This document shows, one piece after another, positions 21,501 through 24,573 of a stretch of DNA of 27,015 bases. Each line of letters opens with the position of its first letter. Positions within the stretch are counted from its first letter, which is position 1. This DNA is from Candidatus Aenigmatarchaeota archaeon (GTDB lineage Archaea > Aenigmatarchaeota > Aenigmatarchaeia > Aenigmatarchaeales > JAHLMR01). The position numbers and the translations under genes were made by a program. The stretch spans positions 1-27,015 of the forward strand of contig JAHLMR010000009.1 of assembly GCA_018920255.1 (NCBI GenBank), read 5' to 3'. Below the pieces are notes generated by a model. It was given only the letters and a program-made list of their open reading frames with translations, was not told the origin of the DNA and did no database searches.

Positions 21501-21562
21501 TAAAAAGTATTATTATTTCTAAGCCGGCGTAGCGAAGCTAGGTTTAACGCGCCAGACTTGAG

Positions 21563-21655
21563 CACTTTATGTGAAATGAGTATATGGCTTGACTCAGAAA
21601 AAAGCAGAATTTTTCTGCTTTGCGGCGGAGATGTTGAGTCTCCTTAAGTTAAGAT
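21563..21655 (+). other. tRNA-Ser anticodon-loop intron, 93 nt, canonical 37/38
   Basis: A strict bulge-helix-bulge can be drawn. The anticodon stem is followed by CTTG (positions 32-35) pairing with TAAG (21650-21653), with 3-nt bulges AG/C at the 5' site and AT/A at the 3' site, and an inner helix ACTT (21564-21567) with AAGT (21646-21649). Inside is a 9-bp hairpin AAAGCAGAA/TTCTGCTTT (21601-21621) and two partly exclusive helices, GACTCA/TGAGTC and GGAGA/TCTCC. No box C/D or H/ACA signature was seen. Confidence 0.88.
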
Positions 21656-21669
21656 ATCTGGTGTCCGCA

Positions 21670-21714
21670 AAATCAGATATTATGATGCATAAAGTGCATC
21701 TAATATTATGCGGA
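21670..21714 (+). other. tRNA-Ser variable-arm intron, about 45 nt
   Basis: The variable region is 60 nt. Removing this segment gives a normal arm, 5-bp stem TGTCC/GGACA with a GCAA loop. The intron itself folds into ATATTA-T-GATGCA/TGCATC-TAATAT. The flanks also offer another 6-bp helix, TCCGCA (21664-21669) with TGCGGA (21709-21714), that excludes the mature arm. Bulge-helix-bulge is only approximate and the junction can shift by a nucleotide. Confidence 0.7.
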
Positions 21715-21756
21715 AGGACACGCAGGTTCAAAGAAACTTCTTTTAGAAAAAGAAGT

Positions 21757-21782
21757 TTCATCAAGAAAACTTAAAAAGTTTT
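21757..21782 (+). repeat. 26-nt direct repeat, copy 1, in the tRNA-Ser T-loop intron
   Basis: Begins TTCATCAAGAAAACTT and is repeated exactly at 21827-21852, 70 nt downstream. The repeat can itself fold (AAAACTT with AAGTTTT). The intron therefore looks built by duplication of modules. Confidence 0.85.
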
Positions 21783-21825
21783 TCTTGCTGAAGCTTCTTT
21801 TTTTGAAAAAGAAGCTTCGAAGAAG
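21777..21825 (+). repeat. 49-nt block shared with the tRNA-Leu intron (Ser copy)
   Basis: Identical to 24355-24403 on the other strand. It starts AGTTTTTCTTGCTG, holds the 13-bp GAAGCTTCTTTTT hairpin and ends CGAAGAAG. Both copies have the same sense relative to their tRNA. Confidence 0.93.
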
Positions 21826-21826
21826 G

Positions 21827-21852
21827 TTCATCAAGAAAACTTAAAAAGTTTT
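21827..21852 (+). repeat. 26-nt direct repeat, copy 2
   Basis: Exact copy of 21757-21782. This copy provides the 3' half of the splice fold: its AAGTTTT end pairs with the intron 5' end and with the central helix. Confidence 0.85.
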
Positions 21853-21959
21853 GAAATTCCTGCCGCCGGCGCCATTTATTTTATATAAAAATATCTAAAA
21901 ATAAAAGAATTAAAAAAAGAATAAAGAATAAAAATAAAAATATAAAAGAAAATAAGAAA

Positions 21960-21971
21960 TCTTTATAAACC
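21960..21971 (+). promoter_or_regulatory. TATA box of the uS13-Rpo3 operon
   Basis: TCTTTATAAACC, about 75 nt before the uS13 ATG, in a purine-rich spacer (21875-21959) with no gene. The expected leader of 50-55 nt contains the seven-codon frame ATG 22008 to TAA 22031 and the GGTGA Shine-Dalgarno at 22036-22040. Confidence 0.55.
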
Positions 21972-22044
21972 TTTAAAAAATTAAATAATTATTCCAAACC
22001 TAAATAAATGGGTTGCCAGTTCAAGGCATAATTCAGGTGAAAAA

Positions 22045-22614
22045 ATGGTTGAAAAAAAAGAAATAAAGTCTCAAAAAATTCCACAAAAACCTCAAATAAA
22101 AAAACAAAAAGTTATTGAGGGAGTTCGTGGAATAGTACATATAGCTGAAACAGATTTAGATGGTACAAAAAAAGTTTCACATGCTCTTCTTAAAATTAAA
22201 GGAATAAGTCATGCTTTAGCAAGAGCAATACCTTATTTTGCAGGAATAAATCATAATGAACTTTTAGGAAAACTTTCTGATGAGCAATTAGAAAAACTTG
22301 AAGATGTTATCTTAAATCCTGTTAAATATGGAATTCCATCGCATTTATTAAATAGAAGAAGTGATCCATTTACAGGTGAAGTAAAACATTTAGTAGCATC
22401 AGAACTTACAATTACAACAAAATCTGATATTGATTTTATGAAAAAAATAAGATGTTATAAAGGAATAAGACATGAATTAGGTCTTCCTGTTCGTGGTCAA
22501 AGAACAAGAAGTAGCTTTAGAAAAGGAATACTTGTTGGTGTAACAAAGAAAAAACAACAAACAAAACAAGCATCACAGGAAACCAAACAAGAAAAGCCAG
22601 CTGAAAAAAAGTGA
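22045..22614 (+). CDS. rps13: Small-subunit ribosomal protein uS13
   Basis: 189 residues, a little longer than usual because of a Lys/Gln-rich start (about 1-23) and a Lys/Gln/Glu-rich tail (after about 168). The core has GVRGIVHIAETDLDGTKKV, the helix-two-turn-helix region and the C-terminal KGIRHELGLPVRGQRTRSSF. It lies in the small-subunit head contacting uL5. First gene of the alpha-type operon; AGGTGA precedes the ATG by 4 nt. Confidence 0.97.
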   Translation: MVEKKEIKSQKIPQKPQIKKQKVIEGVRGIVHIAETDLDGTKKVSHALLKIKGISHALARAIPYFAGINHNELLGKLSDEQLEKLEDVILNPVKYGIPSHLLNRRSDPFTGEVKHLVASELTITTKSDIDFMKKIRCYKGIRHELGLPVRGQRTRSSFRKGILVGVTKKKQQTKQASQETKQEKPAEKK

Positions 22615-22619
22615 TATGA

Positions 22620-23117
22620 ATGAGAAGACAACATAAATTTTATGAAACTCCAAGAAAACCATGGGATAAATTAAGAATAGAGCAAGAAAATAAATTAATG
22701 AAAGAATATGGATTAAAAAGAAAACGTGAAATATGGAGAGCTGAGGCTATTTTAAGAAACTTTAGAAGACAAGCAAGAGAACTAGCTGGCATGCCAGGAG
22801 AAAGCACAAGAAAAGAAATTTTAATTGGAAAACTTAACAGATTAGGAATCTTGCCCACAAATGCAACTTTAGATGATATTTTAGCTCTTGAAATAAATAA
22901 TATTTTAGATAGAAGATTGCAAACGCTTGTATTTAAAAAAGGTCTTGCAAAAACTCCAAAACAAGCAAGACAATTTATTGTACACGGACATATTTCGGTT
23001 AATGGTAGAATTGTTAAATGGCCAAGTTTTTTAGTGCCAACTGAATTAGAAAATAAAATTTCATTTTCAAAAAAGAAAGAACAAATTTTAACAAAAATTG
23101 TTAAAGGTGAAATTTAA
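22620..23117 (+). CDS. rps4: Small-subunit ribosomal protein uS4
   Basis: 165 residues, short archaeal form. RQHKFYETPRKPWDKLRIEQ at the start and the S4 RNA-binding domain LAKTPKQARQFIVHGHISVN (about 117-136). A nucleating protein for small-subunit assembly. The ATG at 22620, not the overlapping ATG at 22616 (which soon stops), is in frame; GTGAT lies 4 nt upstream. Confidence 0.97.
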   Translation: MRRQHKFYETPRKPWDKLRIEQENKLMKEYGLKRKREIWRAEAILRNFRRQARELAGMPGESTRKEILIGKLNRLGILPTNATLDDILALEINNILDRRLQTLVFKKGLAKTPKQARQFIVHGHISVNGRIVKWPSFLVPTELENKISFSKKKEQILTKIVKGEI

Positions 23118-23510
23118 ATGGCAGAAATTAAAAGATGGGGAAAAGCATATATTTTTTCATCCAGTAACAGTACTATAGTTCATATTACTGATATTTCTGG
23201 AGCAGAAACAATTGCTAGAATATCATCTGGTATGATGACAGATAAAGATAGAGAGGGGGGTTCACCATTTCCTGCTTTTCAAGCAGCAACAAGAGCAGCT
23301 GAAATTGCTTTAGAAAAAGGAATTAATGCAGTACATATTAAAGTTAGAGCACCTGGAGGAATAAAATCAAAAACACCTGGTGCAGGTGTTCAACCAGCAA
23401 TTCGTGCTTTGGCTCGTGCTGGTTTAAAGATAGGAAGAATTGAAGATAGAACTCCAATACCCCATGATTCATGTAGAAGAGCAGGAGGAAGACGTGGAAG
23501 AAGAGTATAA
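23118..23510 (+). CDS. rps11: Small-subunit ribosomal protein uS11
   Basis: 130 residues. [20 protein letters not shown] and the C-terminal [20 protein letters not shown] are diagnostic of archaeal uS11, which lines the mRNA path in the platform. It follows uS4 without a gap, with GGTGA inside the uS4 end. Confidence 0.98.
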
Positions 23511-23522
23511 AGGGTGATTTTT

Positions 23523-24299
23523 TTGGAAATAAAAATTCTTAAAAAAAATGATAGAGAATTAGAATTTATAATTACAAATACAACACCACAATTTGCAAAT
23601 GTATTAAGAAGAACTGCAACAGAAGAAATACCAATATTAGCAATAGATACTGTTGATATTTACGAAAATGATTCTATATTTTATGATGAAGTTATTGCAC
23701 ATAGATTAGGATTAATACCATTAGTTTTTAAACAAGATCAGTTTAATTTACCGTCAGAATGTAAATGTAATGGGGCTGGCTGTCCTTTATGCCAAGTAGT
23801 TTTTGTGATAGATAAAAAAGGTCCTTGTACAGTATATAGTAAAGATATAAAATTTAATAATCCTGATGTTTCTGTACTTTACCCAGATATGCCAATTTTA
23901 GAATTAGAAGAAGGACAAAAATTTAAAGCTGAAGGTACAGCAAAAATTGGTTTTGGAATAAATCATGCAAAATGGCAAGCAGCAAAAGCATATTATAGAT
24001 ATTATCCTGAAATAAAAGTTATTGGAAAAATTAAAGATAAAGAAAATATTATAAAAATTTGTCCAAAAAAAGCAATTTCTTTTAAAGGAGATGAATTAGT
24101 ATTATCAGATTCTTGCAATTTATGTGGAGAATGTATTTCAGCTTCTAATAATGCATTAAAAATAACATCAGATGGAAGTAAAATAATTTTTACTATTGAA
24201 AGCATATCTGGTTTAACAGCTAAAGAAATTATAAAAGAATCTATTTCTAAATTAAAAGAACAGGCAAAAGAATTTGAAAAAGCATTAGAAAAGGTATAA
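23523..24299 (+). CDS. rpoD: DNA-directed RNA polymerase subunit D (Rpo3)
   Basis: 258 residues, counterpart of Rpb3 and bacterial alpha; pairs with Rpo11 for polymerase assembly. N-terminal FIITNTTPQFANVLRRTATE; a cysteine cluster ECKCNGAGCPLC (about 79-90) that can bind zinc; and an inserted ferredoxin-like domain. Its cysteines C180, C198, C201 and C204 (ICP, then SCNLCGEC) match the set that holds the iron-sulfur cluster in Sulfolobus RpoD; the second cluster is absent. Start is TTG 23523, with GGTGAT 4 nt upstream; the in-frame GTG 23514 lies inside that signal. Last gene of the operon, convergent with tRNA-Leu. Confidence 0.97.
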   Translation: MEIKILKKNDRELEFIITNTTPQFANVLRRTATEEIPILAIDTVDIYENDSIFYDEVIAHRLGLIPLVFKQDQFNLPSECKCNGAGCPLCQVVFVIDKKGPCTVYSKDIKFNNPDVSVLYPDMPILELEEGQKFKAEGTAKIGFGINHAKWQAAKAYYRYYPEIKVIGKIKDKENIIKICPKKAISFKGDELVLSDSCNLCGECISASNNALKITSDGSKIIFTIESISGLTAKEIIKESISKLKEQAKEFEKALEKV

Positions 24300-24343
24300 T
24301 AATTATAAATTTTAAAATTTTCTATTTGGTGCGGGGGGTGAGA

Positions 24344-24447
24344 TTTTCCCGCAACTTCTTCGAAGCTTCTTTTTCAAAAAAAGAAGCTTCAGCAAGAAAA
24401 ACTGTCTTTCTTGATGAACCTTCTTTCTTTAAGAAAGAAGGTTCATC
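24344..24447 (-). other. tRNA-Leu T-loop intron, 104 nt, position 59/60
   Basis: Removal restores T-loop TTCAAAT. The intron opens with a near-perfect 17-bp hairpin (24413-24447), followed by a 7-bp hairpin and the 13-bp hairpin shared with tRNA-Ser. The splice fold is weaker than in Ser: TTC pairs with GAA (24346-24348) but the fourth pair is A with G. The junction can slide over an AAA run (56/57 to 59/60). Confidence 0.85.
24355..24403 (-). repeat. 49-nt block shared with the tRNA-Ser intron (Leu copy)
   Basis: Reverse-complement identical to 21777-21825. Because the two tRNAs are on opposite strands, the copies form an inverted repeat about 2.5 kb apart, flanking the uS13-Rpo3 operon. 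Confidence 0.93.
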
Positions 24448-24479
24448 TTTGAACTCACGAACTCACTAAGAGACAGGAT

Positions 24480-24515
24480 TTCTTATCATTGTTTCCTCAA
24501 AACTTAAGTTTTAAA
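24480..24515 (-). other. tRNA-Leu anticodon-loop intron, 36 nt, canonical 37/38
   Basis: Canonical bulge-helix-bulge: CTTA (positions 32-35) pairs with the intron TAAG (24482-24485), with 3-nt bulges AG/T and AA/A, and a short inner helix. An internal CTTAAG-type palindrome is present. Confidence 0.88.
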
Positions 24516-24573
24516 CTTAAGTCCTGCGCCGTTGACCTGGCTTGGCGACCCCCGCATATTTTTTAAATAGATA

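Follow-up and report, generated by a model that had tools for sequence, protein, structure and literature searches.

A single family of hairpin-built introns occupies position 59/60 of the T loop in 16 tRNA genes of one small archaeal genome (G000; 552 kb, 94.6% complete), the source of the 27,015-nt stretch of DNA analysed here (the window). By size and gene content, this would be the genome of a DPANN-type archaeon. The introns share sequence, site and a 3' pairing rule, and the genes for a tRNA splicing endonuclease (EndA) and the RtcB ligase are present in the same genome. These insertions are very likely BHB-type introns of one lineage, which would be cut by EndA, sealed by RtcB and copied from one tRNA gene to another.

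Two of the interrupted genes, tRNA-Ser(UGA) and tRNA-Leu(UAA), lie in the window and have the following features:

21523..21874, + strand: pre-tRNA-Ser(UGA) gene including the encoded CCA (7-bp acceptor GCCGGCG/CGCCGGC, T stem GCAGG/CCTGC, anticodon UGA)
21733..21857, + strand: T-loop (59/60) intron of tRNA-Ser(UGA), 125 nt
21733..21759, + strand: hairpin module A (GAAACTTCTTTT..AAAAGAAGTTTC) of the Ser(UGA) intron
21777..21825, + strand: 49-nt block of the Ser(UGA) intron, identical to the Leu(UAA) intron
21790..21818, + strand: hairpin module C (GAAGCTTCTTTTT..AAAAAGAAGCTTC) of the Ser(UGA) intron
21849..21863, + strand: 3' splice region of Ser(UGA), in which TGAA pairs with the T-loop TTCA (21727-21730), followed by AT^T and the T-stem strand CCTGC
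24327..24555, - strand: pre-tRNA-Leu(UAA) gene including the encoded CCA (acceptor GCGGGGG/CCCCCGC, T stem GTGAG/CTCAC)
24344..24447, - strand: T-loop (59/60) intron of tRNA-Leu(UAA), 104 nt
24355..24403, - strand: 49-nt block of the Leu(UAA) intron, identical to the Ser(UGA) intron

A preliminary description of this DNA had placed T-loop insertions of 125 and 104 nt at 59/60 of the two genes, and this placement is exact to the base. The 49-nt identity that it reported is confirmed (21777-21825 and 24355-24403, 100% complementary), as is a module of 18-19 nt that stands in a different order in the two introns and is 100% identical over 19 nt (21820-21838 and 24407-24425). The hairpin inside the shared 49-nt block has a chance expectation of 0 in shuffles of the window. 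Removal of the T-loop introns leaves fully paired acceptor and T stems, restores a 7-nt T loop and yields a standard tRNA. The Ser(UGA) gene is also interrupted in the anticodon loop and carries a third insertion in the variable arm (window 21523-21722). The insertions disrupt the T arm, so that such tRNAs easily escape standard detectors: of the four tRNAs of the window, just one reaches the RF00005 gathering score and none is detected by ARAGORN. No Rfam match to a group I or group II intron catalytic core occurs within the window. At its start (7-109), the window holds the same tRNA-Ile as a second contig of G000 (C13, 3-105); the two copies lie at the ends of contigs C13 and C25 and probably represent an assembly overlap that joins both contigs.

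Of the 39 tRNA genes identified in G000, with anticodons assigned by hand, 19 have a T-loop insertion. The hairpin family accounts for 16 of these insertions, in tRNA-Ser(UGA, GGA, CGA), Leu(UAA, CAA and probably UAG), Gly(UCC, CCC), Trp, Lys(CUU), Met, Thr(GGU), Asn, Arg(UCU, CCU) and Phe, while those of Thr(CGU), Cys and Gly(GCC) are 15-24 nt long and have no hairpin modules. The spread is thus wider than the pair of class II tRNAs first described, as 16 tRNAs carry the family and most are class I. The proposal that the introns are homologous and the genes are not holds well beyond that pair: introns at the same 59/60 site are 98% identical between Lys and Met, 97% between Arg(CCU) and Phe and 92% between Leu(UAA) and Trp. 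Unrelated tRNAs of G000 thus carry near-identical introns, the mark of Thermoproteales-type transposition; among the genomes compared, G000 is the sole member of its family. Further introns of this genome include insertions in the D loop of Met, Thr, Asn, Val, Glu and Pro tRNAs and one in the T stem of Leu(GAG).

The hairpin-family introns are chains of near-perfect hairpins, in which GAAxCTTCTTT...AAAGAAGxTTC is followed by ATCAAGAAAG...TTTCTTGxT and then by a second GAAG hairpin. Their lengths range from 53 to 129 nt through hairpins added or dropped. In the outer pairs of the first hairpin both sides vary, with pairing preserved in 99% of cells (compensatory changes). An intron so strongly palindromic and modular might instead be a MITE-like or REP-like mobile element or repeat, striking tRNA genes as integrases do, with splicing incidental, and tRNA genes commonly serve as integration sites. 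Such an element is very unlikely, however, given where the copies are found. BLAST of the Ser insertion against its own genome gives E-values to 1e-43 at other tRNA genes; each strong match was read and every one is a tRNA T loop, with no convincing copy outside tRNAs in the 552 kb. Strong matches to a covariance model built on the first hairpin are likewise confined to the T-loop loci of G000 and to one tRNA-His of G013, a genome from another family of the same order, in which the first-hairpin module of G000 is placed in the T stem. The genome-wide search that the preliminary description had proposed therefore leaves all strong hairpin-model matches of G000 within tRNA T loops, and the objection that the shared block is a general genome repeat falls away. 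The insertions also have no ORF of their own, sit exactly at 59/60 and nearly always end according to a TTC:GAA pairing rule at the 3' side, a rule also followed by the unrelated insertions that relatives carry at this site. Six weak BLAST matches outside tRNAs have no tRNA context and are attributed to chance. Three matches to the module pattern on viral contigs are likewise without tRNA context, and a search of plasmids with this pattern gave no match.

The pairing rule is drawn from 65 T-loop insertions in seven genomes (19 in G000, 17 in G015, 12 in G016, seven in G011, six in G012, three in G010 and one in G013). In 60 of the 65, a triplet separated by 3 nt from the 3' T-stem strand (GAA, or one of equivalent pairing) pairs with T54-T55-C56, so that the 3' splice site has the central helix and 3-nt bulge expected of BHB-class introns; TTC pairing at the other offsets tested is found in 0-17% of the insertions. 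Exact GAA occurs in 31 of the first 46 introns, compared to a mean of 1.0 and a maximum of 5 in 2000 shuffles. R57 forms a fourth pair in 34 of the 65, and the helix is 3 bp rather than 4 bp in about half. A conserved h' helix on the 5' side was sought in the T-loop introns and is absent, as is the full two-bulge BHB. Since this 5'-side helix is missing, the splice motif, as predicted from sequence, is a relaxed half-BHB (hBH-type) and not a textbook two-bulge BHB. Relaxed sites of this type are cut by endonucleases of broad specificity, most of which are heteromeric (PMC4033280, PMC4090602).

The processing enzymes of BHB-class introns, a cognate EndA and a ligase, are both encoded in G000. 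EndA is represented by two adjacent tRNA_int_endo genes (alpha and beta), and the ligase is RtcB. The alpha subunit has the Tyr and His residues, and its His is preceded by a loop rich in Lys that resembles the one in a chain of PDB 3iey, which we take to be the EndA of Nanoarchaeum equitans. The beta subunit is without the catalytic His. Wherever EndA alpha was found in the order (G000, contig C11, 57379-58187, and relatives), Ala or Ser stands at the position of the catalytic Lys (K156 of the Methanocaldococcus jannaschii EndA; HNIRANMLW compared to HSVRKKLLI), with Tyr and His retained. Among genomes of the order, the beta gene is present in G000, G005, G009-G013, G015 and G016 and was not detected in the family f2 genomes G003, G004, G006, G007 and G008. 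Nearly all tRNAs of G004 and G006 are intact; as f2 is one clade, this correlation counts once. The enzyme genes also bear on whether the insertions are simply retained, to give tRNAs with giant T loops. This is most improbable, as about half of the tRNAs, sole isoacceptors among them, would be without a normal T loop, the splice-type pairing stands at a fixed offset, and EndA and RtcB are encoded.

In the mechanism proposed, the heteromeric alpha plus beta EndA would remove the T-loop introns and RtcB would seal the exons. The 3' splice site would be recognised by the short helix that exon T54-T55-C56 (often with R57) forms with the GAA-like intron triplet; beyond this helix, a bulge fixed at 3 nt (NN^Y60) leads to the T stem. 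Since nearly all tRNAs contain TTC, the same intron could fit almost any tRNA gene, and a single lineage of stackable hairpins may have spread in this way to the 16 genes of G000. The route of spread would most likely be gene conversion, in which homology between T arms guides DNA recombination; an alternative is an intermediate that was reverse-spliced and then copied. Points that weigh against this mechanism are the missing 5'-side helix, the replaced catalytic Lys of EndA alpha and the null result of a Mantel test on whole introns.

The T stems that flank the introns are informative on this route. Among nearest-relative introns in tRNAs of different amino acids, the mean Hamming distance of the T stem is 0.94 compared to 2.02 when permuted (p = 0.0005), in a nearest-neighbour test that was performed after a Mantel test between T stems and whole introns had proved null; a Mantel test on the last 12 nt is weak (p = 0.04). 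The sharing of T stems would favour homology-guided transfer over blind insertion. A different account of the same family is that T-loop introns are old and vertically inherited, and that recombination swapped hairpin modules among existing introns with no gain at empty sites. T-loop introns are indeed found across the order and phylum, three short introns without modules are retained in G000, and some 3' ends of G000 resemble those of G011 mini-introns in the same tRNA (8 of 9 nt in Gly(UCC), 6 of 9 nt in Arg(CCU)). Across genomes, however, introns of the same anticodon have 3' ends no more alike than others (p = 0.8), as is expected if introns jump between tRNAs. Vertical inheritance with module exchange is thus a possible but rather unlikely history compared to spread between tRNA genes.

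Relatives of G000 have spread different introns at the same site, and have done so independently. One T-loop intron is common to Ser(GCU), Ile(GAU) and His(GUG) of G012, two Thr tRNAs of G016 have identical T-loop introns, and three tRNAs of G073 (Ser, Ser and Leu) share another. Putative T-loop mini-introns of 9-10 nt occur in seven tRNAs of G011. Insertions of this length are also seen at two loci of G010; both sets fall below the minimum of 11 nt reported for archaeal tRNA introns (PMC3218864). A T-loop-intron pattern has 325 matches in 156 genomes of the phylum compared to 93 in a reversed control, by which the counts include chance matches, and at least four matches occur in 28 genomes compared to one in the control. 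Of 20 pattern places that were read, about one third have no tRNA by the detector; tRNAs are confirmed in G073, G042, G066 and G009. T-loop intron mobility thus appears to be recurrent phylum-wide. Of the earlier suggestion that T-loop intron spread in the class II tRNAs of one compact archaeon may be new, the spread itself stands, while the limits to class II and to one organism do not, as class I tRNAs are hosts and other introns have multiplied in the order and phylum. On balance, the T loop may well be a general landing site for selfish introns in the phylum, where unrelated introns repeatedly and independently invade 59/60 via the TTC helix and one lineage grows by hairpins. Another intron family (AACCCTTTT..GCAAAAGCGTTCACGGAAAA) is seen in G013 in the D loop, the anticodon loop and the variable arm of tRNAs for Pro, Ile, Gly and Leu (five loci); introns of this genome therefore cross between tRNA positions.

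The spread of near-identical introns between tRNAs is described in Thermoproteales, and 59/60 is a known archaeal intron site (PMC4033280, PMC4090602); Pyrobaculum calidifontis is reported to have 71 introns in 46 tRNA genes (PMC8450103). As reviewed for Thermoproteales, nearly identical BHB introns occur in many tRNA genes per genome together with a heteromeric EndA, as in G000. By contrast, the introns examined here are from a different lineage, are dominated by the 59/60 site, form hairpin chains of 53-129 nt and, within one phylum, include unrelated introns that spread to this site independently on several occasions. The 59/60 site and the relaxed BHB-like (hBH/HBh') motif are shared with non-canonical archaeal tRNA introns (PMC4090602, PMC3218864); these range from 11 to 129 nt with a median of 15 (PMC3218864), whereas G000 has a whole lineage of about 100 nt and G011 has putative introns of 9-10 nt. 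Nanoarchaeum equitans is similar in its small genome, its heteromeric EndA and the loop rich in Lys that precedes the catalytic His (PDB 3iey); however, its split tRNAs are not seen in G000, which has T-loop introns instead, and the catalytic Lys is replaced. A literature search, with most subscription journals outside its reach, returned no paper that describes T-loop introns in comparable archaea with small genomes. In the papers covered, tRNA intron spread and the 59/60 site are known, while spread in this phylum, its fixation on a single site and the construction from hairpin modules were not found. The mobility of tRNA introns described for Thermoproteales is thus extended to a phylum of small-genome archaea, in which many apparently recent copies, close in sequence, and a simple target rule (the T-loop TTC) make archaeal tRNA intron movement testable. 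Many tRNAs of these archaea are overlooked or truncated by standard annotation, and apparent gaps in their tRNA sets can therefore be false.
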